From an uncultured Bacteroidales bacterium (GTDB lineage: Bacteria; Bacteroidota; Bacteroidia; Bacteroidales; FEN-979): DNA of 64,000 bases. Position numbers and translations under genes: made by a program. The stretch spans positions 1 to 64,000 of the forward strand of contig CAIQUS010000015.1 in NCBI GenBank assembly GCA_903875045.1, given 5' to 3'. This document shows, piece after piece, positions 14,964 through 48,813 of this stretch; the stretch's first letter is position 1, and each line of letters starts with the position of its first letter. The notes beneath the pieces were generated by a model. That model saw only the letters and a program-made list of their open reading frames with translations. It was not told the origin of the DNA and did not search any database.

Positions 14964-15008
14964 TTACGGGTGACGGGTGAAAGGTGACACGTGACGGGTG
15001 ACAGGTGA
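14964..15008. repeat. 7 bp tandem array (TGACGGG-like), ~6.4 units
   Basis: ttacggg tgacggg tgaaagg tgacacg tgacggg tgacagg tga. Confidence 0.9.
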
Positions 15009-15023
15009 TTAATAAAAAATGAT

Positions 15024-16454
15024 ATGACTGGAGAACATGTTTTTCAAAGAAGGTTGAATTTGTTTGATTCCACGGCCATTGTGGTGGGGTCGATGATCGG
15101 TTCAGGAATTTTTATCGTCAGTGCCGACATAGCCAGGATGGTGGGTTCACCCGGCTGGCTGATGATGGTATGGATCATCACCGGCTTTATGACAGTTTTT
15201 GCAGCGCTTAGTTACGGTGAACTTGCCGGTATGTTCCCCAAAGCAGGCGGACAGTATGTCTATCTTAAGGAGGCGTATAACCCTTTGACTGGTTTTTTAT
15301 ATGGATGGACACTTTTCATGGTGATTCAAACCGGCACCATTGCCGCAGTGGCAATGGCTTTTGCGAAATTTTCCGGAGTTCTCCTTCCTGGTATTGCAGA
15401 AAACATTGTTTGGATTAAAGCCGGGTTCTTCAAGTTTGGCCCTGTTCAGTTAGTTGCCATCGCTTCCATCGCATTTTTAACATGGATTAACACTTTGGGC
15501 GTCCAGGAAGGGAAAAAGGTTCAGAATGCTTTTACCTCCGGAAAGTTCATCCTGTTGGTTTTGTTTATTATTATTGGTCTTGGGTTCGCCTCCAATATTT
15601 CTGCAATTAACATCAATAACCTGGTTTTCTGGAATCCTGAACGGGAAGGGGCTGGTGGGCAGGATATCCCACTTGCAGGCATGGCGTTGGTAGCTGCCAT
15701 AGGCATGGCCATGGTTGGAAGCCTCTTTTCTTCCGACGCATGGAATAACATCACTTTCACAGCCGGAGAAGTGATCAATCCGAAGAAAAACATCCCGTTA
15801 AGCCTATTCCTCGGTACACTGATTGTGACCATCCTTTACCTGCTTGCAAATATCGTATACATCACTGCACTACCGGTACGCGGGGCGCCGGAAGCAGCAG
15901 ACATTACGGCCAGAGGGATGCAATATGCCCTGAATGACCGACTCGCAACTGCCTCAATTTCCGGAATTTTCGGTAATTATGCCGTATTGATCATGGCCGC
16001 ATTCATTGTCATATCAACCTTTGGGTGTAACAACGGGCTTATCCTTGCCGGGGCCAGGGTTTACTATGCCATGGCAACTGATAAAATATTTTTTAAAAAA
16101 GTAGGCACATTGAATGAAAATGGTGTCCCTGCAACAGGTTTGGTCATCCAGGGAATCTGGGCAGGATTGTTATGCCTCTCAGGAACTTATGGGCAATTAC
16201 TTGATTATGTAGTATTTGCAGTGCTTATTTTTTATGTGCTCACTATTTTTGGATTGTTTCGTCTGAGAAAAAAACGACCTGACATCGAACGCCCCTACAA
16301 AGCATTTGGATATCCGGTCATTCCACTGGTTTATATCATCTTAGCATTAATCGTATTAATTATTCTTTTTATTTATAAACCTGAATATACCTGGCCGGGA
16401 TTGATTATCGTTATTCTTGGGATTCCTGTGTATTTCTTATGGAATAAAAAATAA
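15024..16454 (+). CDS. APC-family amino acid permease
   Basis: GSMIGSGIFIVSADIARMVGSPGWLMMVW; ~12 TM helices. Confidence 0.92.
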   Translation: MTGEHVFQRRLNLFDSTAIVVGSMIGSGIFIVSADIARMVGSPGWLMMVWIITGFMTVFAALSYGELAGMFPKAGGQYVYLKEAYNPLTGFLYGWTLFMVIQTGTIAAVAMAFAKFSGVLLPGIAENIVWIKAGFFKFGPVQLVAIASIAFLTWINTLGVQEGKKVQNAFTSGKFILLVLFIIIGLGFASNISAININNLVFWNPEREGAGGQDIPLAGMALVAAIGMAMVGSLFSSDAWNNITFTAGEVINPKKNIPLSLFLGTLIVTILYLLANIVYITALPVRGAPEAADITARGMQYALNDRLATASISGIFGNYAVLIMAAFIVISTFGCNNGLILAGARVYYAMATDKIFFKKVGTLNENGVPATGLVIQGIWAGLLCLSGTYGQLLDYVVFAVLIFYVLTIFGLFRLRKKRPDIERPYKAFGYPVIPLVYIILALIVLIILFIYKPEYTWPGLIIVILGIPVYFLWNKK

Positions 16455-16491
16455 ACCACACCTTCAAAAGGGTATTTCTCAAAATCATAAA

Positions 16492-17322
16492 ATGGTGAAG
16501 AACTCAATAATTTGGTTCGTCGGGGGGATATTGTTGTTTGCCGGATCTGTTCGTCCACAGGTTGTGACTGCTCAATGTCCAACGTCGAATTCGGTTTTTG
16601 GCGATGGAGAAAAGATTCGCTATACCGTTTCCTATAATTGGGGACCGGTTTGGGTTGATGCCGGAATGGTTACCTTTTCGGTTACCAATGAACTCTTCAG
16701 AGGCAAAACATCCTGGCACCTGAAAGGCACAGGAAAATCTTTTGCTTCGTATGACCTTCTTTTCAAAGTGAGGGATTATTTCGATTCGTGGGTTGACCCG
16801 GAATCATTCAGGTCGTTGGATTTCAGACGAAATGTGTATGAAGGAGGGTATACCTTATTAAATACTTTAACTTTTGACTACAACGGGAAAAAGGTCATCG
16901 CCAATACCAAAAGCAACAATAACCCTCAGCGCACTGATACGTTGCCAATGCGTCCATGTGCATTTGATATGCTTTCGGCAGTGTATTATACCAGAACAAT
17001 TGACTTTTCAGATTTACGCCCCAATACAAAAACGCTTGTAACGGTGCTGATCGATGATGCCTACTACGATATCTATGTGAGGCCGATGGGAAAAGAAATT
17101 GTGGAATCAACTGATGGCAAACGTTACAGGTGTATCAAATTTGCGGCGAAGATGGTGCAGGGAACCATTTTTAAGGGTGAAGAGGATGTGCTGGTCTGGG
17201 TTACCGATGATGCCAACAAAATTCCGATTTACATCGAAGCAAAAATTATTGTCGGAACGGTAAAAGCCTACCTGAAAGATGCAAAGGGGCTGAGAAATCC
17301 AATGTCGTCGGTAGTTCCCTAA
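16492..17322 (+). CDS. DUF3108-like exported protein
   Basis: Signal peptide; GEKIRYTVSYNWGPVWVDAGMVTFSV; start refined to ATG 16492. Confidence 0.8.
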   Translation: MVKNSIIWFVGGILLFAGSVRPQVVTAQCPTSNSVFGDGEKIRYTVSYNWGPVWVDAGMVTFSVTNELFRGKTSWHLKGTGKSFASYDLLFKVRDYFDSWVDPESFRSLDFRRNVYEGGYTLLNTLTFDYNGKKVIANTKSNNNPQRTDTLPMRPCAFDMLSAVYYTRTIDFSDLRPNTKTLVTVLIDDAYYDIYVRPMGKEIVESTDGKRYRCIKFAAKMVQGTIFKGEEDVLVWVTDDANKIPIYIEAKIIVGTVKAYLKDAKGLRNPMSSVVP

Positions 17323-17378
17323 GCGGAGTTTAATATTACATAATTACTGGCATGTTTGCCATGATTTAATTTTTACAC

Positions 17379-18218
17379 ATGAAACTGATTGCTGATAGCG
17401 GCTCAACTAAAACAACCTGGATATTGCTTGAGGGCAATATGGTAAAAAACACGCTGACAACCTGCGGATTAAATCCCTATTTTCATAATTCTGAAAGTGT
17501 TGAAGCCACTCTCAGGGCCGATCTGGTACCATTTCTGGTTGAAAGCCATATTCAGGAGATCCATTTCTATGGGGCCGGATGCTCTACACGGTATAACAAC
17601 CAACTGATCAGTGATGCCATCCGGGTTTTCTTCCGAAACTCGAAAATATTTATTTACCACGACATCCTTGGTGCTGCCAGGGCACTTTTCGGCGATGGCA
17701 TAGGGATTGCCTGTATTTTAGGTACTGGTTGCAACTCGTGTTATTTTGATGGGAAAAACACCTTTTCAAAGATTGATTCGTTGGGATACCTTTTTGGCGA
17801 TGAAGGGGCGGGCTCCTACCTTGGCAAGTTGTTTCTTGGAGCTTATTTTAAGAAGGAACTTCCGGCAGAACTCCGCGATGCGTTTGATAATCAATATGGA
17901 TACACGCTCGAAGATATCCTCAATTCGTTATACAACAAACCATCTCCCAACAGATTTCTGGCCTCGTTCAGCCATTTTATCAGTCCAAACCGTGAACACC
18001 CTTTTGTGCAGCAACTGCTGTCTCGATCCTTTCAGGATTTTTTCACCACCCACATCCGGAAATATGATGATTTTCGATCGACTCCTATTGGTTTTATCGG
18101 CTCCATCGCATATTGCTACAGCGAAGTCCTGACAAAAGTTGCCCTTCAGGAAGGTGTGAAAATTTTCAAAATTTTATCATCTCCGGCTGAAGGGCTGATT
18201 GAGTATCATCAAGGATAA
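17379..18218 (+). CDS. BadF/BadG/N-acetylglucosamine-kinase-like ATPase
   Basis: LIADSGSTKTTWILL; GIACILGTGCNSCYFDG; GYLFGDEGAGSYLGK. Confidence 0.88.
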   Translation: MKLIADSGSTKTTWILLEGNMVKNTLTTCGLNPYFHNSESVEATLRADLVPFLVESHIQEIHFYGAGCSTRYNNQLISDAIRVFFRNSKIFIYHDILGAARALFGDGIGIACILGTGCNSCYFDGKNTFSKIDSLGYLFGDEGAGSYLGKLFLGAYFKKELPAELRDAFDNQYGYTLEDILNSLYNKPSPNRFLASFSHFISPNREHPFVQQLLSRSFQDFFTTHIRKYDDFRSTPIGFIGSIAYCYSEVLTKVALQEGVKIFKILSSPAEGLIEYHQG

Positions 18219-18240
18219 ATTTCCCTGGATCCAAACCTCC

Positions 18241-19179
18241 TTAAATGAGATTGGGTTCAGAGTAATGATCGATATATGAGATTATCTGATCAAGCTCATC
18301 AGGATGAAACCATTTATATCCGTGATCTTTTTTAAACCAGGTCAGTTGTCGTTTTGCATAGCGCCGACTGTGGGTTTTTATCTTTTCAACCGCATGTTCA
18401 AGGGAAGTCAGACCGGCAAAATAGTCAAACAATTCCTTATAACCAACTGTGTTGAGGGCATTCAAATGACGATACGGAAAAAGTGACAGCGCCTCTTCTG
18501 TCAATCCTGCCGTCAGCATCGCATCCACCCGGTCATTTATCCGTTGATAAAGTATTTCACGGGGAAGTTCTATCCCGATTTTCAAAATTCCGAAATTCCT
18601 CTTTGCAGGCTTATTGGACCGGAGCGCGGAATATGGCATGCCTGTAGCCCGGCAAATTTCGAGTGCACGCATTAACCGGGCCGGATTGAGGAGATCAACC
18701 CGGAGCGCATATTCCGGGTCCAGAAGGGCTAATTCACGCTGCAGCGGCTCAATCCCGGAAGCGGTCAAAGTCTCCTTCAACTGGCGGCGAATTTCCGGAT
18801 CGGGATCAGGCAGTAAATCGATGCCGTGGCACAAGGCATTGATATATAACCCTGAACCTCCCACCAGGACAACAATTGGGTGACGATGAAAAAGGTCCTC
18901 AATCAATTCAAGTGCATCGTGTTCAAACCTTGAAACATTGTAATCCTCCCCTATCGATAAATGATGAATAAAGTGATGTTTGACCAATGACAATTCCCGC
19001 GCGGAGGGTATGGCCGTTCCGATATGCATCTCGCGATAAAACTGCCGGGAGTCAGCAGAGATGATCTCAGTGTTAAAATGACATGCAAGGGAAACAGCAA
19101 GGTTTGTTTTACCGACAGCAGTCGGGCCTGCAACAACTACCAGTAAAGGATCATTAATAGTCATCGGAATCGCGGTCAA
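18241..19179 (-). CDS. miaA: tRNA dimethylallyltransferase
   Basis: VVAGPTAVGKTNLAVSLA; ISADSRQFYREMHIGTA; final RRYAKRQLTWFKKD. Confidence 0.95.
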   Translation of the reverse strand: MTAIPMTINDPLLVVVAGPTAVGKTNLAVSLACHFNTEIISADSRQFYREMHIGTAIPSARELSLVKHHFIHHLSIGEDYNVSRFEHDALELIEDLFHRHPIVVLVGGSGLYINALCHGIDLLPDPDPEIRRQLKETLTASGIEPLQRELALLDPEYALRVDLLNPARLMRALEICRATGMPYSALRSNKPAKRNFGILKIGIELPREILYQRINDRVDAMLTAGLTEEALSLFPYRHLNALNTVGYKELFDYFAGLTSLEHAVEKIKTHSRRYAKRQLTWFKKDHGYKWFHPDELDQIISYIDHYSEPNLI

Positions 19180-20009: not shown

Positions 20010-21425
20010 TTAACTGTTTGCCTGATAAAGTCCGAGTTTTTCCCCTTCCCTGAGCATCAGTTGAAAAGCAGTTTCAAATGTGTTCGGTATTTCACCTTCC
20101 AGTATGGCTTCGGTGATGGCATCTTTAATAATTCCAACAGATTTTGACGGAGGGATGCCAAAAGTTTTCATGATCACTTCACCGGTAATCGGCGGCTGCC
20201 AGTTTCGCAACTGATCTTTCTCTTCAATCTCCTTTAATTTCTGCCGGACAATATTGAAATTTTCAATATACCGTTTAACTTTATTCGGATTTTTCGAGGT
20301 GATATCAGCGTTGCAAAGCAGCATGAGGTCATCAATATCATTGCCTGCCTCAAACAACAACCTGCGGACAGCTGAATCTGTAACTACATCTTCTGCAAGA
20401 ACAATGGGCCGAAGGTGGAGGAGTACCAGCTTTTCAACATATTTCATCTTGTCATTCAGCGGGAGCTTCAGTTTTCGGAAGATATGCGGGACCATTTTGG
20501 CCCCCCTGAATTCGTGCGCATGGAATGTCCATCCTGTTCCCTGGATAAACTTTTTGGTAAGTGGTTTGGCTATGTCATGTAAAATGGCAGCCCACCTCAG
20601 CCAAAGATCATAAGAAACAGCTGCAACATTGTCAAGGACGGCCAGTGTATGATAAAAATTATCTTTATGACCTTTTCCTTCGATGATCTCAGCCCCTTTG
20701 AGATCGCAAAATTCAGGGAAAATAATTCTCAACAATCCGGATTCATCCAGCAAACGGAATCCTTTTGACGGAATTTCTGCCTGGATGATGAGATTGAATT
20801 CATCGGAAACGCGTTCCATGGATACAATCGAAATACGGTGGGCATTTCGCGATATTGCTTCAAAGCAGGAAGGTTCAATAGAGAAATCGAGTTGCGTAGC
20901 AAACCGGATGGCGCGCATCATGCGTAAAGGGTCATCAGAAAAGGTAACATCCGGATCCAGCGGGGTACGGATGATTTTTTCTTTAAGATCACTGATTCCA
21001 TTAAAGGGATCGATCAACTGTCCGTACGATTCTGCAGTCAGGTCAATGGCCATCGCATTGATGGTAAAATCACGCCGGTTCTGATCGTCCTCGATGGTCC
21101 CATCCTCAACGATGGGTTTGCGTGAATTCCTTCTGTATGACTCTTTCCGGGCGCCCACAAATTCAATTTTCCATCCATGGTAATTCAACATGGCGGTGCC
21201 GAAATTTTTAAAAAATTTCACTGGGATGTCGCCCTCCAGTTTTGCGGCTACGAGATGAGCGAAGTCGATACCGCTGCCCAACACAACTATGTCAATGTCC
21301 TGTTTATTGTCGCGGTTCAATAGCAAATCCCTCACAAAGCCGCCTATCACAAAGGCTTTGACATTCTCTTCTTTCGCAACCTGCGAAATGATTTGAAAGA
21401 TTGGATTTATGAGATGATTTTTCAA
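20010..21425 (-). CDS. cca: CCA tRNA nucleotidyltransferase with HD domain
   Basis: AFVIGGFVRDLLLNRDNKQDIDIVV; RRDFTINAMAIDL; HD region. Confidence 0.93.
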   Translation of the reverse strand: MKNHLINPIFQIISQVAKEENVKAFVIGGFVRDLLLNRDNKQDIDIVVLGSGIDFAHLVAAKLEGDIPVKFFKNFGTAMLNYHGWKIEFVGARKESYRRNSRKPIVEDGTIEDDQNRRDFTINAMAIDLTAESYGQLIDPFNGISDLKEKIIRTPLDPDVTFSDDPLRMMRAIRFATQLDFSIEPSCFEAISRNAHRISIVSMERVSDEFNLIIQAEIPSKGFRLLDESGLLRIIFPEFCDLKGAEIIEGKGHKDNFYHTLAVLDNVAAVSYDLWLRWAAILHDIAKPLTKKFIQGTGWTFHAHEFRGAKMVPHIFRKLKLPLNDKMKYVEKLVLLHLRPIVLAEDVVTDSAVRRLLFEAGNDIDDLMLLCNADITSKNPNKVKRYIENFNIVRQKLKEIEEKDQLRNWQPPITGEVIMKTFGIPPSKSVGIIKDAITEAILEGEIPNTFETAFQLMLREGEKLGLYQANS

Positions 21426-21487
21426 ATGGCGAAATGGTGAAATGGTGAAATGGTGAAATGGCGAAATGGTGAAATGGCGAAATAGTT
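21424..21487. repeat. 8 bp tandem array (AAATGGTG-like), 8 units
   Basis: aaatggcg aaatggtg x3 aaatggcg aaatggtg aaatggcg aaatagtt. Confidence 0.92.
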
Positions 21488-21615: not shown

Positions 21616-22806
21616 ATGGCAAAAAGAACAATCGTTGCGATGCCCGGTGATGGTATCGGCAAAGTCGTCCTTGATGAGGCCATCCGCGTGTTGGATGCAG
21701 CCGGTTTTGAAGCAGAGTATGTTCATGGTGACATTGGCTGGGAATTCTGGTGCAAAGAAGGTGATCCATTTCCGGAGCGCACCCAGAAACTGCTTGAGAA
21801 ACATAAGATCGGCCTTTTCGGTGCAATAACCTCCAAGCCAAAAGATAAAACAGAAGCCGAACTGGCCCCGGAACTGAAAGGCAAAGGATTTGCCTACTAC
21901 AGCCCCATTGTAACCATGCGGCAGAAATATGACCTCGACATCTGCATGCGCCCATGCAAAACATTCAAAGGAAACCCGCTAAACTTTATCAGGCGCGGAT
22001 TTGGCGGAGTTATTGAGGAACCCATTATTGATACCATGATCTTCCGTCAGAACACTGAGTGTTTATATGGTGGCGTTGAATGGTCAAATCCCTCCGACCA
22101 GGTGTATGATGCCCTGATGACCCATAAAAAATTCAGGGATAACTTTGCATGGTGTCCCCGTCCTGAACTGGCAGTTTCAACCCGTATTTTTACAAAAAAA
22201 TATACCGGACGGATTCTGAAAGCTGCATTTGAATATGCCAAAGCACGCGGATTCAACACAGTGACCGTTTGCGAAAAACCCAATGTTATTCGTGAAACTT
22301 CAGGAATGATGTTGAAAATGGCCCAGGAGATGGCAAAAAATGAATATCCGGGGATCAAAGTCCAGGACACCAACATCGATGCGCAGATGATGTGGCTTAC
22401 CAAGAACCCTGAAACGTATCATGTGATGGTTGCCGGTAACATGTTCGGCGACATCGTTTCAGATGGTTTTGCCGGCCTGATCGGAGGACTCGGATTCGCT
22501 TGCAGCGCCAACATTGGCCCTGAAATCGCAGTTTTCGAGCCAACCCACGGGTCAGCACCAAAATATGCGGAATTCAATCCGTCGATCGTTAACCCAACCG
22601 CCATGATTCTCTCTGCCGTTATGATGCTCGAACATCTTGGGGAAATGGAGATAGCTGCAAGGATTTCAAAAGCCGTTGCAGAAGTTGTGGAAGAAGGCAA
22701 AGTTATGACCTACGACATGTTGAAACTTCCCGGAACACCTGACGCATTCAGCAAAGGTGCGGCAACTACGCAACAAATGGCGGAGGCCATCATTGCTAAA
22801 CTATAA
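21616..22806 (+). CDS. Isocitrate/isopropylmalate dehydrogenase family enzyme
   Basis: MPGDGIGKVVLDEA; EKPNVIRETSGMM; GNMFGDIVSDGFAGLIGG; EPTHGSAPKYA. Confidence 0.92.
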   Translation: MAKRTIVAMPGDGIGKVVLDEAIRVLDAAGFEAEYVHGDIGWEFWCKEGDPFPERTQKLLEKHKIGLFGAITSKPKDKTEAELAPELKGKGFAYYSPIVTMRQKYDLDICMRPCKTFKGNPLNFIRRGFGGVIEEPIIDTMIFRQNTECLYGGVEWSNPSDQVYDALMTHKKFRDNFAWCPRPELAVSTRIFTKKYTGRILKAAFEYAKARGFNTVTVCEKPNVIRETSGMMLKMAQEMAKNEYPGIKVQDTNIDAQMMWLTKNPETYHVMVAGNMFGDIVSDGFAGLIGGLGFACSANIGPEIAVFEPTHGSAPKYAEFNPSIVNPTAMILSAVMMLEHLGEMEIAARISKAVAEVVEEGKVMTYDMLKLPGTPDAFSKGAATTQQMAEAIIAKL

Positions 22807-22877
22807 AATGTAAACAATGTAAACTATGCAAGCAATGCAAGCAATCAAACAACACCTGCATTGCCTGCAGTGCCCGC
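22807..22877. repeat. 9 bp tandem array with strand switch (AATGCAAGC / ATTGCCTGC)
   Basis: aatgtaaac aatgtaaac tatgcaagc aatgcaagc aatcaaaca acacctgc attgcctgc agtgcccgc; begins right after TAA 22804-22806. Confidence 0.85.
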
Positions 22878-22909
22878 ATTATTTTCATCAACAATCCAAA
22901 ACTGAAAGT

Positions 22910-23458
22910 ATGACCGAAGAAATTAAATCCCTGTGGCCTGAGTTGATGTGGATCCAGGATCCCGTTCTCCGCGAAACGACTGCAAAAACATGGGAAATGG
23001 CGCTGGAAAAAAGCGTTTTAACACCCGATGACCTGAATAAGATTCCCTTTACCCTTCTTGCCGGGCCCGACCTGAAGGTGTCATTTATGGCTCACAAGCG
23101 CTGCGTAGTGCATGTGGCGCGTGATGCCGGGAACAAGATGAATGAATTTTTCAAAGATGATCTCCCTGTGAACATGGATATTCTGATTGCCGGTGCCATC
23201 CTGGCCGATGTTGGCAAATTGCTGGAGTATGAACTCGATGCAAACGGAAAATCATTCCAGGGAAAATATGGAAAGTACCTCCGTCATCCGTTCTCCGGTG
23301 TATCCCTTGCAGAACAATGCGGGGTGCCTGCTGCTGTTTGCCACATCATCGCTACTCATGCAGGCGAAGGTGACATGGTGAAACGCACGACCGAAGCTTT
23401 CGTGGTACATCATGCTGATTTTATGACATTTGAGCCGTTCAGGGACAGGCTTAAATGA
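22910..23458 (+). CDS. HD-domain protein
   Basis: FMAHKRCVVHVARDAG; AGAILADVGKLLEYEL; CHIIATHAGEGD; start refined to MTEEIKSL because the ORF's N-term is repeat-derived. Confidence 0.8.
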   Translation: MTEEIKSLWPELMWIQDPVLRETTAKTWEMALEKSVLTPDDLNKIPFTLLAGPDLKVSFMAHKRCVVHVARDAGNKMNEFFKDDLPVNMDILIAGAILADVGKLLEYELDANGKSFQGKYGKYLRHPFSGVSLAEQCGVPAAVCHIIATHAGEGDMVKRTTEAFVVHHADFMTFEPFRDRLK

Positions 23459-23460: not shown

Positions 23461-23595
23461 AATGTAAGCAATGCAAGCAATTTAAGCAATGAAAACAATG
23501 CAAGCAATGAAAAAAGCAAAAACAATGAAAACGATTAATGCAATGTAACCATTGCCTGCATTGCCTGCATTGTTTGCATTGCCCACATTGTTTGC
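23461..23595. repeat. 9 bp tandem array with strand switch, ~15 units
   Basis: aatgtaagc aatgcaagc aatttaagc aatgaaaac aatgcaagc ... attgcctgc attgcctgc attgtttgc attgcccac attgtttgc. Confidence 0.92.
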
Positions 23596-23626
23596 ATTTA
23601 TCCATTAACCCATTAACCCCAAAAAA

Positions 23627-25435
23627 ATGACCATCATCGAACAAATTATAGCAAAGCACTCCGGACAGCAAACTGTAAAGCCGGGTGATATTCTGGATGT
23701 GATCATCGATACACGCGCTGCACGAGATTTTGGCGGAGCCAATGTAGTAAAAAACCTCATTGACAATGGCCTGACTGTTGAAAATCCTCAAAAGACCATC
23801 TTCACATTCGACTGCAATCCTGGCGGATCAGATCAAAAATATGCTGCCAATCAGCACTATTGCAGGCAGTTTGCCCGTGAGAACGGTATCCGGGTGTATG
23901 ATGTTGATGCCGGAATCGGAACGCACCTTGCCATTGACAACGGACTTACATGGCCGGGAAGCACATTTGTGTCCACCGATTCGCATGCCAACATTATGGG
24001 CGCCATCGCTGCTTTCGGACAGGGCATGGGAGACCAGGACATTGCCGCAGCCTGGGCAAAGGGAGCCGTTTGGTTTAAAGTACCTGCCTCGGTTAAAATC
24101 AATCTGACTGGAAAAAGACCAGCCAATTTAACCGCCAAGGATATTGTTTTAAACCTTCTGTCGATTTTTGGTGCCAATAAGCTCCTTGGTTATTCTGTTG
24201 AAATATATGGTGAGGAAACCGAAAAATTCACACTTGCCGAACGGATTACCATTGCTTCCATGGGCACTGAAATGGGAGCTATTATTGTGCTGTTTCCGAC
24301 TTCACCGGCACTTCTCGGTGAATTAAAGCTGATCACAGGTAATGATTATGATGCTGTTACAGCAGGTCCCGATGCAAAGTATGAACAAACATTCGACATC
24401 GACCTGGGCAAATTTGTCACCATGGTCGCAAAACCAGGGCATCCGCATGATGACACCTCCATTGAAACCGTGCGCAATCAGAAAATAGATTCAGGTTTTA
24501 TCGGAAGTTGTACAAATGGCCGTATGGAAGACCTTCGTGCTGCTGCCTCCGTGTTAAAGGGCCGCAAAGTAGCTCCCGGTGTGGTGCTTAAAATTGTTCC
24601 CGCCACCGATGCCATCTGGACACAGGCCATGGACGAAGGTATCATCCAGACTTTTAAGGAGGCCGGTGTGATGGTGTCGAACGCTGGTTGTGCCGGTTGT
24701 GCGGCAGGACAAGTCGGTCAAAATGGACCGGGTGAAGTGACCATCAGCACGGGAAACCGTAATTTTGAAGGCAAACAGGGAAAGGGTTTTGTATACCTGG
24801 CATCGCCCGCGGTGGTTGCCGCATCTGCAGTTGCCGGCTTCATTACCACGCCCGACCAGATCCCGGACCAACCAACACTTTTTCATGCTACCGGAAAACC
24901 CGCCATGTCACAGGTGCGGCCTGACAAAAAAGAAAAAACAGAGAAACCAACTACTGTGGAAGGTGCTGTTTGGATTATCGCCAAAGATGATATCGATACA
25001 GACATGATTTTCCACAACCGGTATCTTACCATTACCGATATCAGGGAAATGGGACAGTATACCTTCGACAACCTGAAGGGATTTGAAGATTTTGCCCGGA
25101 AAGCAAAACCAGGGGACATCGTCATCACCCGGAAAAATTTTGGCGCCGGCAGTTCACGCCAGCAGGCTGTTGACTGCTTTTTATCATTGGGCATCAGTTG
25201 TATCCTGGCAGAATCGTACGGGGCTATTTATGAGCGCAATGCCATCAATGCTGCATTGCCGATACTTACTTATAAACCTGATGTTCTGCTCCAGGCTGAT
25301 ATTCACGATGGTGACAGGATCAAGGTTGATTTTATTTCAGGAGAAATGACAAACCTTGCAAACGGGAAATCAGTTCAGTTGGATAAATTTTACAATGCGC
25401 AACTGGCGATTTATCAAAACGGAGGCTTGTTGTAA
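23627..25435 (+). CDS. Aconitase/3-isopropylmalate dehydratase family, fused large and small subunits
   Basis: STDSHANIMGA; GSCTNGRMEDL and GCAGC cluster ligands; small-subunit NFGAGSSRQQA. Confidence 0.92.
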   Translation: MTIIEQIIAKHSGQQTVKPGDILDVIIDTRAARDFGGANVVKNLIDNGLTVENPQKTIFTFDCNPGGSDQKYAANQHYCRQFARENGIRVYDVDAGIGTHLAIDNGLTWPGSTFVSTDSHANIMGAIAAFGQGMGDQDIAAAWAKGAVWFKVPASVKINLTGKRPANLTAKDIVLNLLSIFGANKLLGYSVEIYGEETEKFTLAERITIASMGTEMGAIIVLFPTSPALLGELKLITGNDYDAVTAGPDAKYEQTFDIDLGKFVTMVAKPGHPHDDTSIETVRNQKIDSGFIGSCTNGRMEDLRAAASVLKGRKVAPGVVLKIVPATDAIWTQAMDEGIIQTFKEAGVMVSNAGCAGCAAGQVGQNGPGEVTISTGNRNFEGKQGKGFVYLASPAVVAASAVAGFITTPDQIPDQPTLFHATGKPAMSQVRPDKKEKTEKPTTVEGAVWIIAKDDIDTDMIFHNRYLTITDIREMGQYTFDNLKGFEDFARKAKPGDIVITRKNFGAGSSRQQAVDCFLSLGISCILAESYGAIYERNAINAALPILTYKPDVLLQADIHDGDRIKVDFISGEMTNLANGKSVQLDKFYNAQLAIYQNGGLL

Positions 25436-31263: not shown

Positions 31264-31533
31264 ATGAATTTAGCACCTGAAGTAAAAAAGAAAGCATTCT
31301 TAGAACACGGAAAATCAGAATTTGACAGTGGCTCCACCGAAGCACAGGTAGCCTTGTTTACCATGAAAATCCAGCATCTTACCGAGCATCTGAAAATTAA
31401 CAAAAAAGACATGGTGACGGAACGTTCACTGGTTATCATGGTAGGGAAACGCAGAAAATTGCTGGATTATCTGAAAAGCAAAGAGATTCAACGCTACCGC
31501 GACATTATTAAAAAACTCGGTATTCGTAAATAA
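31264..31533 (+). CDS. rpsO: 30S ribosomal protein S15
   Basis: GSTEAQVALFTMKIQHLTEHLKINKKDMVTERSLVIMVGKRRKLLDYL. Confidence 0.97.
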   Translation: MNLAPEVKKKAFLEHGKSEFDSGSTEAQVALFTMKIQHLTEHLKINKKDMVTERSLVIMVGKRRKLLDYLKSKEIQRYRDIIKKLGIRK

Positions 31534-31559
31534 AATAACTATTTTCTTTATAAATCAAG

Positions 31560-31588
31560 AAAGAGGCAATGTGATAATTGCCTCTTTT
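31560..31588 (+). terminator. Hairpin between rpsO and pnp (terminator or processing site)
   Basis: AAAGAGGCAAT-loop-ATTGCCTCTTTT followed by T/A-rich tract. Confidence 0.65.
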
Positions 31589-31610
31589 AATATCTGAAAG
31601 AGACCAACAC

Positions 31611-34796: not shown

Positions 34797-34799
34797 CAA

Positions 34800-34848
34800 A
34801 TTCGACAATCGTAAATCGTAAATCGTAATTCGTCATTCGTCATTTGTA
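34800..34848. repeat. 7 bp tandem array (AATCGTA / ATTCGTC), 7 units
   Basis: attcgac aatcgta aatcgta aatcgta attcgtc attcgtc atttgta. Confidence 0.88.
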
Positions 34849-35510: not shown

Positions 35511-35586
35511 ATTCCTTCGGCCTTGAAACCATTATCCTTCAGCATCAAGATTTTTTTCATATTTTTACAAAAAATTGAATCACTGC

Positions 35587-36192
35587 ATGGATTTCAACGC
35601 AGCCAGCGAATATATATTTGGTCGCCTGCATCGGGAATTGAAGCCTGCATTGAGTTATCATTGCATGGAACACACAGTTGATGTGCTTGCGGCAACCCGC
35701 CGGCTGGCTGATGCCGAACTGATTGAACCCTATCCACGGATATTGCTGGAAACAGCAGCATTGTACCATGATGCCGGCATGATCGTCCAATATAAAGATC
35801 ATGAATCTGCTTCGGTCGTTTTAGCCGATCAATCACTGGCCGGATTTGGATATTCCGTTCCGGAAATAGAAGAAGTTTGCAATTTAATCATGGTCACCAA
35901 GTTACCACAGCGTCCGTATAACCATTTGGAACAGATTCTGTGTGATGCTGACCTGGATTATCTTGGACAGGATATTTTTTTTATCAATTCTTTTAAATTG
36001 CGGCTTGAATGGCATGTGAACGGAATTAAAAGCACTACCCTGCCTGAATGGTTTGACATCCAGTCGAAATTTCTTACAGAGCACGAGTATTTTACAAAAT
36101 CGGCCATTACGCTGAGAAATGAGAAAAAGTTGAAACACCTGGCAGAAATCAAGGAACTTCTTTCACAAAGTAACCTGAAATCTAAATCGTAA
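35587..36192 (+). CDS. HD-domain phosphohydrolase-like protein
   Basis: SYHCMEHTVDVLAATRRLA; LLETAALYHDAGM. Confidence 0.82.
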   Translation: MDFNAASEYIFGRLHRELKPALSYHCMEHTVDVLAATRRLADAELIEPYPRILLETAALYHDAGMIVQYKDHESASVVLADQSLAGFGYSVPEIEEVCNLIMVTKLPQRPYNHLEQILCDADLDYLGQDIFFINSFKLRLEWHVNGIKSTTLPEWFDIQSKFLTEHEYFTKSAITLRNEKKLKHLAEIKELLSQSNLKSKS

Positions 36193-36211
36193 ATCGTAAA
36201 TCGTAAATCTT
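36178..36211. repeat. 7 bp tandem array (AAATCGT), ~4-5 units, overlapping a gene's 3' end
   Basis: aaatct aaatcgt aaatcgt aaatcgt aaatctt; stop TAA 36190-36192 lies inside. Confidence 0.85.
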
Positions 36212-36215: not shown

Positions 36216-37096
36216 ATGGAACCAGCCAAACAGGATAAAAAGTACAATAAAACCCTCCTGATCCCGACAGATTTTTCGGATGTATGCGGCAATGCGATTT
36301 CTCATGGTGTAAAACTGGCAAAATATCTGGGTTACAAGGTATTTATTCTGCATATCATCAACAAACAAACCAAGTCAGAACTCAGAAAGAAAAATGTGGG
36401 GTTTGATTATGTGGATATGCGGTTAAAGGAATACGAGAAGTATTACGCTAAGAAATATGGGGTTGAAATCGATACCATGGCTGTTGAAGGATCCATTTTT
36501 GCAACGATCGGGTTGGTGGCAAAAGAGATCAAAGCGAACCTGATGGTCATGGGAACTCACGGAAAGAAAGGTCTGCAGCATGTATTCGGCAGTTTTGCTG
36601 TCAAAGTTGTTGAACAGTCGCCAATTCCTGTGGTTGTTGTTCAGAAACGATCATTCAAAGCGGGTTATCAAAGCATCGTTTTCCCTGTCAGCAATGATCT
36701 TGAGCCCAGGCAAGCCGTTCAATGGGCCAAATTGATGTCTAATTTATTTACTGCAAAATTGCACATCTTTATATGCCCGGAGAAAGAGAAAACACGGGTA
36801 AATTCCCTGGCAATGATTATAAAACAAATCACAGCCATTTTTGATTCCGAAAATGTAAACTACTCGGTCACTACTGCTGCACGATCAGCTGGTTTTGCTG
36901 AACAGATTATCGATTACAGTGTTATGAAACATGCAGATTTAATCATGATCATGACACGGCCAAACATCGAAATTCCGGGATTCACCCTCTCCTCCTGGGA
37001 CGAACGACTGATGTTCAATGAAGCCCAGATTCCCGTAATGGGTATTAATCCGATTGATTATGGTTATCATATCAGTGAATGGACGGGGTTGGGTAA

Positions 37097-37100
<4 letters not shown>
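36216..37100 (+). CDS. Universal stress protein, tandem UspA domains
   Basis: TLLIPTDFSDVCGNAISHGVKLAK; LMVMGTHGKKGLQHVFGSFAVKVVEQSPIPVVVV. Confidence 0.92.
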
Positions 37101-37184
<84 letters not shown>

Positions 37185-41742: not shown

Positions 41743-41797
41743 GTGGGCAAGTGGGCAAGTGGGCAAGTGGGCAAGTAGGCAGGTGGGCGAGTTGGTT
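41743..41797. repeat. 8 bp tandem array (GTGGGCAA), ~7 units
   Basis: gtgggcaa x4 gtaggcag gtgggcga gttggttt; ends at the stop codon of 41798-42850. Confidence 0.92.
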
Positions 41798-42850
41798 TTA
41801 GTTCAGGCTGATGTTTCCGAATTCGCTATGGATGATAACCTTGCTGGAAGGTGAATCATTTCCGCCGATGGTTCCTTTATATGAATTTTCGGTGGGTGTT
41901 GTCGACCTGAACGAAAATTTGGCCTTATCTGAAGGAAAATCAAGATCACAGAATTTCAAATCCGCCTCCAGACTGTATTTTGCCTGTTCGCTCAACCCGA
42001 TTGAAACTGAACCATATTTATTCCGGATATTTACCGAAGTGAAATCTGCCGGCATTTCATGAATATCACATTTGCCGTATTGGATATCAAGGTTGAGACT
42101 CTGTTCAACCCGCTGGATATCAATGTCGGTAAATTTTGATTTGCTTTCAACTGCCGAGGAGTTTTCCATATTGAGTTTGCCTCCTTCGAATGCCATATTG
42201 AGTGAAATGATTTTTTCAGCATCAAGGTTTGAGTATTTAGAATCCAACCGCAGGCTCCCGGCATAATCGAGGTTCATATCCGAGTATTTCAAGGTTAATA
42301 CCGCACCCTTGATCCAATTGACCCGTGCCTTGCTGAATTTAATATCCAGGAGGTTATCGGAGTTCCCCAGTTTTTTCGCTTCAAGGTTTCCATAGCTCAG
42401 GTTAATTTTCGCCTTTCCCTGTATCTCATTGATGTAAATATCGCCAAATTTATTGGTAACATCAAGATTGACAGTTAAAGGCATATTGATCATATAATCA
42501 ATTGAAAATTTTCCCTTACCGGAATTTTTCATTTCCTGCATATTTGTTGTGGCAGTAACGGCAGGTGGGGAATTTGAAAAATCAACCGAAATCCGCTTAA
42601 ACATTTTTTCGGCTTCTTCCTGATCTGCAGCTGTAACAGTGATGGTAACATCGAAGGAAACAACGTTCTTTTCCCAATCGGCACAATGAACCTTCCCAAA
42701 CCGGTTATTCACTGTGAGCTGGGCATCAGGATTAATGGTAAATTCTTTTTTGATCACCCTGGTAAACTCATCGTGGGCTTTCACTCCTTTGATACCAAGT
42801 AAAAAGATAAAGACCAGGATGAAAAATGCTACTTTTATGATTGTTTTCAT
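41798..42850 (-). CDS. Exported DUF4097-like beta-repeat protein
   Basis: FTINPDAQLTVNNRFGKVHCADWEKNVVSFDVTI; GDIYINEIQGKAKINLSYGNLEAKKL. Confidence 0.75.
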   Translation of the reverse strand: MKTIIKVAFFILVFIFLLGIKGVKAHDEFTRVIKKEFTINPDAQLTVNNRFGKVHCADWEKNVVSFDVTITVTAADQEEAEKMFKRISVDFSNSPPAVTATTNMQEMKNSGKGKFSIDYMINMPLTVNLDVTNKFGDIYINEIQGKAKINLSYGNLEAKKLGNSDNLLDIKFSKARVNWIKGAVLTLKYSDMNLDYAGSLRLDSKYSNLDAEKIISLNMAFEGGKLNMENSSAVESKSKFTDIDIQRVEQSLNLDIQYGKCDIHEMPADFTSVNIRNKYGSVSIGLSEQAKYSLEADLKFCDLDFPSDKAKFSFRSTTPTENSYKGTIGGNDSPSSKVIIHSEFGNISLN

Positions 42851-44101: not shown

Positions 44102-44998
44102 TTGCCGCTGTTGAAAAAAATCCACATACCGGTCTATTTTTATCCTCTGGCTGCAATGCTGTTTTGGGGGCTGTCATTCATCTGGAGTTCATTGCTGCTG
44201 GTTTATTATCAACCGGTCACCATTATTTTCATCCGGCTGATCATTTCAGCAGTTTTCCTCTTTGCTCTCATTTTTGCCCTGGGCAAATTTGAGAAAGTTG
44301 AGCGTAAGGACTATAAATTAATTTTGCTGAGTGCCTTGTTTAATCCTTTTCTCTATTTTCTTGGCGAAAACTACGGATTAAAATTTTCATCCCCGACCAT
44401 TGCCGCAGTTATAATTGCCACCATTCCGGTTTTTTCTCCTTTGATCGGATATATTAGTTTCAGGGAAAAGCTGACACCGGTGAACTTCATTGGCATCATC
44501 GTGTCCTTTGCAGGCGTGCTGCTGATGCTTGTTGCCCGTGATTTGACCCTCGCAGCAGATGTCAAAGGGGTTGTGTTTCTGTTTTGCGCAGTTTTTGCCG
44601 CCCTGCTATACACTGTTGCCCTGCGCAAACTGACGATGAAATATTCGGCCATTGTGCTGGTGGCCAATCAGAACCTGATCGGAATTTTTCTGTTTCTTCC
44701 ATTTTTTCTTCTGTTTGAGGCTAAGTCGGCCATTGCCGTTCCTCTGAACAGTGAGATCATCACCTCGATGCTTTTGCTGGCTATTCTTGCCTCTTCGGTA
44801 TCTTTTGTCTTTTTTGCCCATTCGGTGAAACTCCTTGGAATCAGTAAGTCGAACATTTTCTCCAACCTTATCCCTGTTTTTACAGCGATATTTTCCTACA
44901 TGCTTCTTTCTGAATTATTTACCATTCAAAAAATTGCAGGGATCGTGCTGGTCATCGGCGGAGTTTACCTCTCGGAACGGTCGAAAAAACAGCATTAG
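44102..44998 (+). CDS. DMT/EamA family transporter
   Basis: ~10 TM helices in two EamA halves; SPTIAAVIIATIPVFSPLIGYISFREKL. Confidence 0.9.
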   Translation: MPLLKKIHIPVYFYPLAAMLFWGLSFIWSSLLLVYYQPVTIIFIRLIISAVFLFALIFALGKFEKVERKDYKLILLSALFNPFLYFLGENYGLKFSSPTIAAVIIATIPVFSPLIGYISFREKLTPVNFIGIIVSFAGVLLMLVARDLTLAADVKGVVFLFCAVFAALLYTVALRKLTMKYSAIVLVANQNLIGIFLFLPFFLLFEAKSAIAVPLNSEIITSMLLLAILASSVSFVFFAHSVKLLGISKSNIFSNLIPVFTAIFSYMLLSELFTIQKIAGIVLVIGGVYLSERSKKQH

Positions 44999-45082
44999 TT
45001 CATTTCATTTACATTATCTTTGCTGATCAATAATGTGAGTATGATTTTCAGGCCGGAGAAGTTAAAAATTAAGGATCAGCGC

Positions 45083-46471
45083 ATGAAGCCTTTCATCGAT
45101 TCCGATGAAATATGGGATTATATCAATACTACCCCGGCAACGAAGGAAAAGGTGAGAGACGTTATTGCCAAATCACTGGATAAAAATCGTTTAACACTTG
45201 CCGAAACCGCCATCCTCATCAATGCTTCTGATCCGGAGTTGATCGAGGAGATCAAACAAGGTGCCCGAACGCTCAAAGAAAAAGTATATGGTCAGCGCAT
45301 CGTGCTGTTTGCTCCATTATATATCGGGAACCTCTGTACCAATAATTGTGTTTATTGCGGATTTAAAGCTTCAAACAAAAAGATTAAAAGGGTAACCCTC
45401 GATGAAAATGACCTGATCAGGCAGGTCAAAGCACTTGAGGACTCTGGGCAGAAGCGGCTGATCCTGGTATATGGGGAACATCCGAAATATGATGCAAAAT
45501 TTATTGCAGATTCGGTTAGGACGGTTTATTCGGTTAAAAGCGGCAATGGGGAGATCAGACGGGTAAATATCAATGCGGCCCCGATGGATATCGATGGTTT
45601 CAGGATCATCAAGGATGCCAAAATCGGAACATACCAGATCTTCCAGGAAACTTATCATCAGGAAACCTATGCAAAAGTACATCCCGGGGGGCAGAAAAGA
45701 AACTATGACTGGAGGTTGACCGGACTTGACCGCGCACAAGAAGCCGGTATTGACGATGTGGGCATCGGAGCATTGTTCGGACTTTATGACTGGCGGTTTG
45801 AAGTGCTAGGGCTGGTTCGGCACACCAACCATTTTGAGGCCGTTTACAATGTCGGGCCTCACACTATTTCATTTCCCCGCATCCAATATGCTTCAGAACT
45901 GAATATTGATAAGTCACACATCGTGAACAATGCTGAATTTACCCGGTTGGTAGCTATTCTTCGCCTTGCGGTTCCCTATACCGGACTCATCCTTACTGCC
46001 AGGGAAACTGCTGACATTCGGGATGAGATTATGCAATTTGGTGTTTCTCAGATTGATGGAGGGACAAACATTGAGATGGGCGGTTATTCAAAAAGGAAAG
46101 AAAACGAAGACCAGGATATTGACCTCGAACAATTCCAAATCAATGATAACAGGAGTTTGAATGAGATCATGGACGACCTGATAGACCATAAGTATATTCC
46201 GTCATTCTGTACCGCCTGTTATCGTTTGGGAAGAACAGGTGAACACTTTATGGAGTTTTCAGTGCCGGGATTTATCAAACGCTTTTGTCAGCCCAATGCA
46301 CTGATCACCATGGTTGAATACCTTGAAGATTATGCCCCGGAAGAAACAAAAGGGAAAGGTTATCTACTGTTGCAGGAAAAACTCGATGAAATCGAAGATG
46401 AATCCTTTAAAATCAAACTGACTGAAAAAATAAATCAAATCAAAAATGGCACCCGCGACTTGTACTATTAA
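45083..46471 (+). CDS. hydG: [FeFe]-hydrogenase H-cluster radical SAM maturase HydG
   Basis: Radical SAM CTNNCVYCGF; FQETYHQETYAKVHPGGQKRNYDWRLTGLDRA; QIDGGTNIEMGGY; C-terminal SFCTACYRLGRTGEHFM. Confidence 0.93.
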   Translation: MKPFIDSDEIWDYINTTPATKEKVRDVIAKSLDKNRLTLAETAILINASDPELIEEIKQGARTLKEKVYGQRIVLFAPLYIGNLCTNNCVYCGFKASNKKIKRVTLDENDLIRQVKALEDSGQKRLILVYGEHPKYDAKFIADSVRTVYSVKSGNGEIRRVNINAAPMDIDGFRIIKDAKIGTYQIFQETYHQETYAKVHPGGQKRNYDWRLTGLDRAQEAGIDDVGIGALFGLYDWRFEVLGLVRHTNHFEAVYNVGPHTISFPRIQYASELNIDKSHIVNNAEFTRLVAILRLAVPYTGLILTARETADIRDEIMQFGVSQIDGGTNIEMGGYSKRKENEDQDIDLEQFQINDNRSLNEIMDDLIDHKYIPSFCTACYRLGRTGEHFMEFSVPGFIKRFCQPNALITMVEYLEDYAPEETKGKGYLLLQEKLDEIEDESFKIKLTEKINQIKNGTRDLYY

Positions 46472-46526
46472 CACATCAATACATCAGCACATTATCACAT
46501 CAACACATCAACACATCATCACATTA
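46471..46526. repeat. 8 bp tandem array (ACACATCA), 7 units
   Basis: acacatca atacatca gcacatta tcacatca acacatca acacatca tcacatta; starts at last base of hydG stop. Confidence 0.92.
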
Positions 46527-46531
46527 ATTAA

Positions 46532-46789
46532 ATGAAGGAGCTCAGAATTATCGGTTTATTGATCACCGACCGAATCAAAGAGGCAGGACGCACACAGCAA
46601 ATACTCACAAAGTATGCCCATGTGATCAAGTCAAGGCTTGGGTTTCATGAAGTAACTGAAGACGTTTGCAGTCGTATTGGTGTGGTTATCCTGCAACTTG
46701 CCGGCACTTCAGCCGAATGCAATAAACTTGAATATGAACTTGGTCAGATTGGCGGTCTGGAGATCCAGCGGATGGTTTTCTGCCTTTAA
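46532..46789 (+). CDS. TM1266-like putative iron-only hydrogenase system regulator
   Basis: KELRIIGLLITDRIKEAGRTQQILTKYAHVIKSRLGFHEV...GLEIQRMVF; adjacent to hydG. Confidence 0.8.
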   Translation: MKELRIIGLLITDRIKEAGRTQQILTKYAHVIKSRLGFHEVTEDVCSRIGVVILQLAGTSAECNKLEYELGQIGGLEIQRMVFCL

Positions 46790-46800
46790 CACACAAAACC

Positions 46801-48459
46801 ATGAAGGAACATCACAGGGATGCGTTACGAAAAGAATTTGAGGAGTATTTTATGGTCTCTTCGTTGCCAACCATGCGGCTCGGGCTTCTGGTTACGATGA
46901 TCATGTTCTCATTTTTTGCTTTTTTCAACCTCATCTTTTTCCCTGATTCACCGGAACAATCATACTACAGCCGTTTCTGGATTATTTCCCCGTTCATGGT
47001 CATTTCGATCATGGTGACCTACATTAAACCCCTTTATAAATGGTTGCGGCTGACATACATCATCCTGAATGTTTTTATATGCCTGGCTATTTTATATGTA
47101 GGCATTCAATCTGAACCCACTCAAAAAGGATCAGAGTATTATTTTGCATGGGTGATGCTGGTAGTGATCGGCTTTTTTGTTTTTTACAGAATGTCCTTCT
47201 TCATCCTTGTTGTCATCGCCATATTCCAGGTTGTTGCCTACACCATCGCAACCATTCTTAACCACACTTTTGAACAACACCCGTTTTTCTTTTTTAACAA
47301 TCTGTTTTTTGTATTGGCTATTTTTTCCATCGGGTACATGATGGCCTACATGTATCGAAAACTGAACTGGAAAAATTTCTTACATCAAAAAGCTCTCACA
47401 AAGAGCAACTTGCAGCTGCAGGCTGAGATCAAAGAGCGAAAACAAGCGGTTGAAGCCTTGCAGCGCTCTGAAATTTTATATCATGACACCCTTGATGCAA
47501 TTCCCGACTGGATATACGTTGTTGACAGGGATAAGAAGTTTGTGATGCTTAATTCTGCCCTGCAGGAAGAACATCTCAGGCAGGGATTTACGATTAGCTG
47601 CCTCGGAAAGCGGATTGACAAGGTTTATCCGTTTATACCTTCCTCCACCATCCATGAAATAGACCAGGTATTTACTTCAGGCAAAATCATCATTGGAGAA
47701 CAGCAGTTTTTCCTCCGGGATAAAACGATTTATGGAGAAACCCGTAAAGTTCCGATCTTTAAAGATAACCAGGTTATCCAGGTATTGACGATCATGCGCA
47801 ACCGGTCAAAAGAAAAGGAAATAGAAGAGCTGAAACAAAGAAATGTTGAACAAAAAGAGATCATGCTCCGCGAAATCCACCATCGCGTAAAGAATAACCT
47901 CGCCATTGTGATCAGCCTACTAAACCTTCAACTCCGCAATAACAATGACGCAGGGCTGGCCAGAATCATCCGCGATATTGAAATGCGGATTCGCTCCATG
48001 GCGCTGATACATGAGCATTTATACCGGTCAGAAAATATCGACCGTATTCCCCTGGCATCCTATCTCCATTCACTTGCCACCATTATTACCGGCGCCTTCA
48101 GCGGTCGCCGGATAAAACTTGTGACATCACTGGAACCGATTGACGTCAATATTGAAACTGCTTTACCGTTAGGCCTTATTGCAAATGAATTGCTGACAAA
48201 TGCGTTCAAATACGCTTTCGTGAATGATGAAGACGGAGAAATACAAGTTCTTCTGGTTAAGGAAAATGAAGATGAGTTTTCGCTAATAATCAAGGATAAT
48301 GGCGTGGGATTGCCGGATTCATTCTCAATGGATTCAGAAAAAACCCTCGGCGTGTTTATTGTCAGGTTACTGGTTGAACAACTGGATGGCAAACTTGAAA
48401 TTACCAGGCGACCCGGAACTACTTTTACCCTTCACTTCAAAAATTTATTGTCAAAGTAA
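46801..48459 (+). CDS. Membrane histidine kinase, PAS + HisKA_2/HATPase
   Basis: ~6 N-terminal TM helices; H-box MLREIHHRVKNNLAIVISLLNLQLR; N-box ALPLGLIANELLTNAFKYAF; GVGLPDSF. Confidence 0.92.
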   Translation: MKEHHRDALRKEFEEYFMVSSLPTMRLGLLVTMIMFSFFAFFNLIFFPDSPEQSYYSRFWIISPFMVISIMVTYIKPLYKWLRLTYIILNVFICLAILYVGIQSEPTQKGSEYYFAWVMLVVIGFFVFYRMSFFILVVIAIFQVVAYTIATILNHTFEQHPFFFFNNLFFVLAIFSIGYMMAYMYRKLNWKNFLHQKALTKSNLQLQAEIKERKQAVEALQRSEILYHDTLDAIPDWIYVVDRDKKFVMLNSALQEEHLRQGFTISCLGKRIDKVYPFIPSSTIHEIDQVFTSGKIIIGEQQFFLRDKTIYGETRKVPIFKDNQVIQVLTIMRNRSKEKEIEELKQRNVEQKEIMLREIHHRVKNNLAIVISLLNLQLRNNNDAGLARIIRDIEMRIRSMALIHEHLYRSENIDRIPLASYLHSLATIITGAFSGRRIKLVTSLEPIDVNIETALPLGLIANELLTNAFKYAFVNDEDGEIQVLLVKENEDEFSLIIKDNGVGLPDSFSMDSEKTLGVFIVRLLVEQLDGKLEITRRPGTTFTLHFKNLLSK

Positions 48460-48481
48460 ATTATCTATCCGATATAAAACC

Positions 48482-48742
48482 ATGAAAGAGCTTTGGATTT
48501 TGGGTGTTCACATCACCAACAGGGTCAAAGACGTTTCAGATTTTCAAGCTGTTCTCACAAAGTTTGGCTGTACCATAAAAACGCGGCTCGGGCTTCATGA
48601 AGTAACTGACGACTTTTGCGCCCTCAGCGGGCTGGTCATCCTCGAACTCACCGGCCACAGGGAAGAATTTGTTAAACTGGAGAATGAGCTTTTGAAGATC
48701 GATGGAATAGAGGTAAAGAAGATGGTGTTTGATAAGGGGTGA
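48482..48742 (+). CDS. TM1266-like protein, second paralog
   Basis: MKELWILGVHITNRVKDVSDFQAVLTKFGCTIKTRLGLHEVTDDFC, clearly similar to 46532-46789; start refined. Confidence 0.8.
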   Translation: MKELWILGVHITNRVKDVSDFQAVLTKFGCTIKTRLGLHEVTDDFCALSGLVILELTGHREEFVKLENELLKIDGIEVKKMVFDKG

Positions 48743-48813
48743 CGGGTGACGCGTGACGCGTGATGGGTGACGCGTGATGGGTGACGGGTGACGGGTGACG
48801 CGTGACGCGTGAC
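48740..48813. repeat. 7 bp tandem array (TGACGGG/TGACGCG), ~10.5 units
   Basis: tgacggg tgacgcg tgacgcg tgatggg tgacgcg tgatggg tgacggg tgacggg tgacgcg tgacgcg tgac. Confidence 0.95.

Follow-up and report, generated by a model that had tools for sequence, protein, structure and literature searches.

A 64,000-nucleotide stretch of DNA from an uncultured Bacteroidales bacterium (GenBank assembly GCA_903875045.1, contig CAIQUS010000015.1, positions 1 to 64,000), here called the window, carries short tandem repeat arrays with units of 7 to 9 bp at its gene junctions. The window is part of contig C15 of a 5.96-Mb genome in 253 contigs, designated G000, which is compared here with 18 other genomes of the genus (the congeners; 19 genomes in total). 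An original prediction, made from the letters alone, had described ten such arrays and a weak eleventh. Tandem Repeats Finder (TRF) recovers all ten at essentially the same coordinates with periods of 7, 8, or 9 bp, and their sequences can be read directly. The arrays are given below for the plus strand.

The array at positions 14960 to 15008, delimited by TRF and direct reading, is built from 7-bp units of the GTGACNN family (consensus CAGGTGA or RSGTGAC) and lies between the divergent genes 14212 to 14874 (minus strand) and 15024 to 16454 (plus strand), the latter encoding an APC-type amino acid permease. The same approach locates an 8-bp array of the GYGAAATR family (AAATGGYG, 7.5 copies) at positions 21424 to 21483. 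It is found upstream of a gene resembling the CCA tRNA nucleotidyltransferase gene (20010 to 21425, minus strand), with a 2-nucleotide (nt) overlap with the predicted 5′ end of this gene, in the divergent gap preceding the gene at 21616 to 22806 (plus strand). Directly after the stop codon of the latter gene, which is similar to isocitrate/isopropylmalate dehydrogenase genes, follows a 9-bp array (AATGCAARC, 22807 to 22877) with a partly complementary, hairpin-capable right half. A further 9-bp array at positions 23461 to 23598, between an HDIG gene (22826 to 23458) and a gene of the aconitase family (23627 to 25435), contains two complementary halves (AATGCAAGC... and then ...GCATTGCCT). Both 9-bp arrays, characterized by TRF and folding, show this organization of two complementary halves in a long imperfect hairpin, and a similar 9-mer is present in the congener G003 (L203:10936 and L204:9182).

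The AAATCGT family is represented by a 7-bp array detected by TRF at positions 34799 to 34848, at the junction of the genes for an rpoD-like sigma factor and ribulose-phosphate 3-epimerase (rpe), and by a second one at positions 36178 to 36211 (4.7 copies), which spans the stop codon of the gene at 35575 to 36192 and reaches the start of the gene at 36216 to 37100. At the stop codon of the latter begins a compound array (37097 to 37184) of TTGAGAG (8.6 copies) followed by AATTGGA (4.9 copies). The 8-bp array GTGGGCAA (41743 to 41797, 6.2 copies) lies directly downstream of the stop codon of the gene at 41798 to 42850 (minus strand), and the 8-bp array AACACATC of the GMTRATGT family (46467 to 46528) fills the entire gap between the genes 45020 to 46471 and 46532 to 46789. 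The convergent gap between 48299 to 48742 (plus strand) and 48815 to 49759 (minus strand) is filled by 11 copies of the GTGACNN unit GGGTGAC (48737 to 48813). The weak three-unit run NYTTARC at positions 63456 to 63476 (ACTTAAC GCTTAAC ACTTAGC) is real, with a score under the TRF threshold.

The census beyond the window covers 1.01 Mb of G000, read in pieces and 83% coding, with genes called by a simple ad hoc hexamer gene caller. Intergenic arrays number 59 at period 7, 45 at period 8, 5 at period 9, and 3 at period 11, with none at periods 5, 6, 10, and 12; periods of 14 and 16 are mostly doubled units. The proposal of a single class with a period confined to 7 to 9 bp is supported. Dinucleotide-model shuffles of intergenic DNA contain no arrays at periods 7, 8, or 9, which places the arrays far above chance. 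Two congeners resemble G000 in the range of periods, G012 with 19 heptamer and 8 octamer arrays in intergenic DNA and G003 with 5 heptamers, 13 octamers, and 4 nonamers as well as one or two arrays at periods 10, 11, and 13. Outside the genus, 79 loci (1.42 Mb) of other Bacteroidota contain a total of 9 arrays of period 7 to 9.

Most of the sampled G000 contigs were chosen through an AAATTGG-type match and show 133 arrays per Mb, compared to 45 arrays per Mb (8 arrays in 179 kb) on contigs chosen by number alone; the true density therefore lies somewhere between 45 and 133 arrays per Mb. Counts are overdispersed across 20-kb pieces of G000 (mean of 2.5, variance of 5.7, 10 of 41 pieces empty), indicating that some regions of the genome are nearly free of arrays. 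Arrays are also found at contig ends, at C17:1-124 in G000 and on contigs C69, C89, C94, C100, and C190 of G007. Long arrays probably interrupt short-read assembly, so that their true lengths are underestimated.

The units of the ten window arrays mostly differ from one another, as originally described. This does not hold genome-wide, where recurring families are found, including AAATCGT, AAATTGG, GTGACNN, GTGGRCRR, and GYGAAATR. Clustering of the G000 units yields AAATCGT (27), AAATTGG (24), AAGTGGGC (12), the GTGAC type (11), AAATGGTG (11), AACGGGTG (9), ACATCAGC (8), and smaller clusters, and three 7-bp families take in 62 of the 140 arrays. Differing words also adjoin within single gaps, and higher-order periods of two and three units occur (alternating 14-, 16-, and 24-bp periods).

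Between species, the dictionary of words changes. GTGGGCAA at 2.75 copies has 35 exact matches in G000 (overlapping matches counted) and no exact 22-base match among the 18 congeners. Matches to three copies of AAATCGT number 131 in G000 and 330 in G001, and several congeners have none (range of 0 to 330); four copies of GTGACNN match 0 to 734 times per genome, with 734 in G421, and three copies of GYGARRTR match 0 to 302 times. Arrays are plentiful in G000, G001, G003, G009, G012, G418, G420, and G421, in contrast to several array-poor congeners (G006, G010, G011, and G005). The two variable letters of GTGACNN form dialects, mostly GG, GC, AG, and AC in G000, AA and GA in G417, and GC and AC in G418. 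A small dictionary of words thus recurs across the genome and differs between species, which indicates that unit words do spread and contradicts the view that the arrays are not a spreading sequence family. Two other families of the order have GTGACNN arrays as well (G481, with the letters TT, CC, and TC, and G435/G547); at the order level this word is not special, since the reversed control CAGTGNN also matches in other genera. Among 2.9 million viral contigs, AAATCGT is found in 17, GTGACRS in 9, and GTGGGCAA in none, rare occurrences that possibly reflect host DNA in viral bins.

Orthologous junctions, compared between congeners with ∼75% DNA identity across the region, differ in the presence of arrays and in the word they carry. 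The junction 46471|46532 measures 12 to 22 nt without an array in five congeners, in contrast to the 60-nt array of G000. At 48742|48815, the gap comprises 72 nt with 11 copies of GTGACNN in G000 and 5 to 15 nt in G003, G006, and G010; G012 has a different pair of arrays at this place, and G008 has four units. The gap between the rpoD-like sigma factor gene and rpe is 2 nt long in G008 and contains arrays of several different words in G000, G012, G009, G003, G001, and L089, the last being the nearest named relative by its sigma factor (uncultured Bacteroidales bin AM5_bin-0527, 97% identical). The junction after the gene at 36216 to 37100 carries an 8-bp TAGCGAAA array in G009, and downstream of the gene at 41798 to 42850, four species (G000, G012, G003, and G009) show four different words or word pairs. 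Ten other junctions, one of them with a conserved hairpin-T terminator, are without notable 7- to 9-bp arrays in all species compared. In a manual tally, arrays of other species account for 14 of 47 observations at junctions occupied in G000 compared to none of 69 at empty ones (P = 8e-7). This indicates that the place is permissive or hot and that the word is replaceable. At one junction that is array-free in the other species, L089 carries an array of a 4-bp unit (GATT, 11 copies, L089:7083-7126).

The location at gene junctions is confirmed by the census, as arrays are not equally common inside genes. With 83% of the DNA coding, just 19 of the 140 arrays lie over predicted genes (P about 1e-72), and the remaining 121 (86%) lie outside. 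A few 7- and 8-bp arrays inside long predicted open reading frames (L025:4408, L028:7389-7500, and L028:13002) are either real or gene-calling errors. The density per kb of gap falls from 1.51 in convergent to 0.88 in codirectional and 0.31 in divergent gaps, which fits an avoidance of genes and promoters. The coding-region or promoter location of phase-variation simple sequence repeats (SSRs) is accordingly not found here, with arrays mostly outside genes and fewest in divergent gaps.

Of 81 arrays in codirectional gaps, 45 begin no more than 10 nt from the upstream stop codon, compared to 20.8 expected under uniform placement; with at least 120 nt of slack in the gap, the count is 12 of 32 compared to 2.8 expected. 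Part of this excess stems from gaps that are tight, from the avoidance of promoters, and from small genes that the gene caller overlooked; some long gaps probably contain such uncalled genes, which inflates the preference for stops. The proposed anchoring on stop codons is mostly a residue of insertions tolerated only in the short gaps of a densely packed genome, since array-free orthologous junctions measure 2 to 15 nt. The arrays are also not bound to gene ends as signals, given that orthologous junctions do without them, that units are oriented independently of gene direction, and that one junction can hold different units in different species. The suggestion that the units place stops in all frames is true for about six of the ten window units. 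In families where just one strand carries a stop, that strand is sense in 17 cases and antisense in 15, and a supply of stop codons as a selected feature is rejected on these counts.

The arrays are best explained, with reasonable though limited confidence, as a single class of short tandem repeats with satellite-like behavior and a period of 7 to 9 bp, the words of which are copied between junctions, resized, and purged from genes and promoters. Word sharing within genomes, the change of dictionary between genomes, differences in presence and word at orthologous junctions, and multi-unit duplication are observed directly. In the proposed mechanism, an existing array would donate a copy of a short block of its units to a new junction through microhomology-mediated template switching or ectopic recombination. 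The array would then expand or contract through slipped-strand replication or unequal exchange, including steps of two and three units, and purifying selection would delete copies in genes or promoters, so that survivors concentrate in the space from a stop codon to the following gene. Mismatch repair acts on short loops alone, and the lower period limit may reflect this range. Periods of 7 to 9 bp would correspond to slippage loops that are too big to be repaired in this way but can still be expected to form. A gene-level function would not be needed.

Several results weigh against this interpretation. In this comparison between species, no copying event was seen directly. No flanking sequence in common was found that would identify an element, the inspected ones among 317 flank hits being neighboring arrays or overlaps, and a larger mobile element recognizable by its flanks is rejected on this basis. 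Within contigs C17, C69, C218, C7, and C161, arrays of the AAATTGG family, unlike those of any other, tend to share one strand (22 pairs same, 3 different). Their position on the GC-skew-positive strand in 20 of 24 cases likewise hints at an effect of the replication strand; this concordance is left unexplained by satellite dynamics, and most families show no replication-strand bias. Neutral satellite drift should also spread mutations over all unit positions, whereas variation is found at the same positions in independent arrays (permutation P ≤0.0002 in all seven families) and at much the same positions in G003, G012, G009, and G008. In GTGGRCRR, positions 1 to 4 hardly vary and positions 5, 7, and 8 vary in many arrays; the variable letters are the first two in RSGTGAC and the Y and R in GYGAAATR. 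Conservation of the GTGAC core deduced from fixed-core pattern searches alone would be circular; the within-array and cross-species tests left the core free. Shared ancestral polymorphism can explain the pattern within a species, less well across species that are ∼25% different in DNA, where it suggests constraint on the core or repeated exchange.

The variation of the same unit positions across diverged species is the main reason for retaining another reading. Here, a dedicated sequence-specific machinery other than a reverse transcriptase, such as a core-recognizing nickase or a template-switching complex, would seed and extend 7- to 9-bp words at junctions, which is distinctly unlikely. If true, bacteria would possess a satellite-writing system with a dialect in each species, and the enzyme's need for the core would be what preserves it. 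A writer enzyme in the form of a telomerase-like, RNA-templated reverse transcriptase, comparable to DRT10, or of a core-recognizing nickase is very unlikely. Letters that vary at specific unit positions are reminiscent of templated repeats in which a position of the template is ambiguous, and the 9-nt tandem cDNA of DRT10 is of similar repeat length (PMC12632851), but a dozen words would require a dozen templates. No RVT_1 match is found in the array-rich genomes G012 (95% complete) and G421 (97% complete; 734 GTGACNN matches), by which a reverse transcriptase as the required writer is rejected for the 19 genomes, at the sensitivity of the Pfam model and the completeness of the bins. The fixed core could also be the recognition sequence of a nucleoid protein or regulator, with the variable letters as a spacer and the units kept by selection as binding sites. 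This agrees with the division into core and variable letters seen across arrays and species (RS+GTGAC, GTGG+RCRR, and GYGA+RRTR) and with the degenerate tandem hepta- and octamers of Geobacter, proposed as sites of a global regulator (PMC2700814). Many unrelated words would nevertheless require many proteins, words such as GTGGGCAA are limited to one species, orthologous junctions exist entirely without arrays, several congeners are poor in arrays, and the promoter-bearing divergent gaps have the fewest; binding sites are thus rather unlikely. A local and independent birth of each array by slippage of a chance duplication, with no copying between sites, is unlikely to a similar degree. Heptamer arrays can be made by slippage, SSRs with long units are most often heptamers in many bacteria (Mrazek et al. 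2007, as summarized in PMC4679880), and sporadic unrelated arrays exist across Bacteroidota; local slippage would not, however, place one small set of words at dozens of sites (62 of 140 arrays in three families) and leave congeners without them.

A function as transcription terminators or mRNA stability elements is highly improbable. The density maximum in convergent gaps would suit terminators, as would the folding of two arrays, with a strong predicted hairpin at positions 23461 to 23598 (−45 kcal/mol, z-score of −4.7) and a z-score of −7.4 as RNA for the GGGTGAC array at positions 48737 to 48813. Several of the ten window arrays, on the other hand, do not fold or fold no more than shuffled sequences, and unit orientation relative to the neighboring genes is unbiased over the families as a whole (7 sense and 9 antisense for AAATCGT). 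This combination of unbiased orientation and mixed folding makes the general role in termination or RNA stability considered in the original prediction unlikely, as do the congener gaps without arrays. The G+C-rich hairpin with a T run on the sense strand, typical of intrinsic terminators, is not seen in the arrays. A conserved hairpin followed by TTTT (AAGAGGCAATNNGATAATTGCCTCTTTT) is present at positions 31534 to 31610 after the small gene 31264 to 31533 in every congener compared; judged by its sequence, it appears to be a genuine intrinsic terminator, and it is array-free in all species compared. Repetitive extragenic palindromic (REP) sequences and bacterial interspersed mosaic elements (BIMEs) occur in many copies at gene 3′ ends, together with REP-associated tyrosine transposases (RAYTs). 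A similar spread by an IS200-type (Y1) transposase is extremely improbable here. The many copies at gene 3′ ends and three Y1_Tnp genes in G000 would agree with it, but most units are not palindromic (among the ten window arrays, only the 9-mers have complementary halves), no common element was seen among the flanks inspected, and the array-rich G012 lacks a Y1_Tnp match, so that a Y1 transposase is rejected as a required factor within the limits given above for RVT_1. An assembly artefact of the short-read metagenome bin can practically be set aside. Some arrays do lie at contig ends (C17:1-124 in G000, C94:1 in G007, and others), where lengths may be truncated, but the same words and places recur in separately assembled congeners, and most arrays, at 25 to 150 bp, fall mostly within one read.

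Several tandem heptanucleotide families per genome are characteristic of the short tandemly repeated repetitive (STRR) sequences of heterocystous cyanobacteria. The arrays of G000 share this feature, with recurrent unit families within one genome, and differ in the phylum, in the words, and in the additional octamers and nonamers. Tandem heptanucleotides of Calothrix are cited in PMC4692102. Long SSRs (LSSRs) have units of 5 to 11 nt with heptamers dominant, a length of 7 nt being proposed to suit polymerase slippage (Mrazek et al. 2007, as summarized in PMC4679880). The arrays show the same long units, prominent heptamers, and intergenic location (121 of 140), with tandem 5- to 11-nt units far above chance and periods 7 to 9 dominant. 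In contrast to LSSRs, heptamers and octamers are about equally frequent and some nonamers occur, units are imperfect, the dictionary is species specific, and orthologous junctions differ.

Direct repeats of TAACTGA are described from Beggiatoaceae, Cyanobacteria, and some Bacteroidetes (MacGregor 2015), and in Aequorivita and Gramella the corresponding gap of a close relative is shorter and repeat-free (PMC4679880). These heptamer arrays in gene gaps thus parallel the junctions described here, but they consist of one word in one orientation, mostly a few nt upstream of start codons, whereas G000 shows many words without orientation bias near stop codons; TAACTGA is absent among its clustered units. 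GGGAATC of Xanthomonas and GGGGAYT of Nostoc are likewise heptameric intergenic arrays, some in inverted pairs, that vary among close relatives, but they represent a G-quadruplex-forming single family (PMC4692102), and most words here are not rich in G runs. Several degenerate 7- and 8-mer families (GTTGCTYN and MTYCTGA) at 16 to 49 sites are also known from Geobacter metallireducens, with a fixed copy number of 3 to 5, often paired sites, and a partial link to insertion sequences (PMC2700814), in contrast to the freely varying copy number in G000. REP sequences and BIMEs share the many copies at gene 3′ ends and differ from these arrays, which have no palindromic unit and no required Y1 transposase. 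A literature search on intergenic repeats at stop codons found nothing.

The arrays are therefore of a known kind, the heptameric LSSRs and STRRs, of which they form an unusually dense version with many words and with dictionaries and dialects that can be told apart by species. For annotation practice, this means that additional evidence is required before stop-anchored repeats in this lineage are labeled terminators or regulatory elements. The pattern of fixed core and variable letters raises the question of whether sequence-specific selection or a copying enzyme shapes bacterial tandem repeats. The genus offers a compact bacterial model of satellite-DNA dynamics, with a genus-wide library of words, differential amplification in each species, and replacement at permissive sites, readable at orthologous junctions that are tens of bases long.

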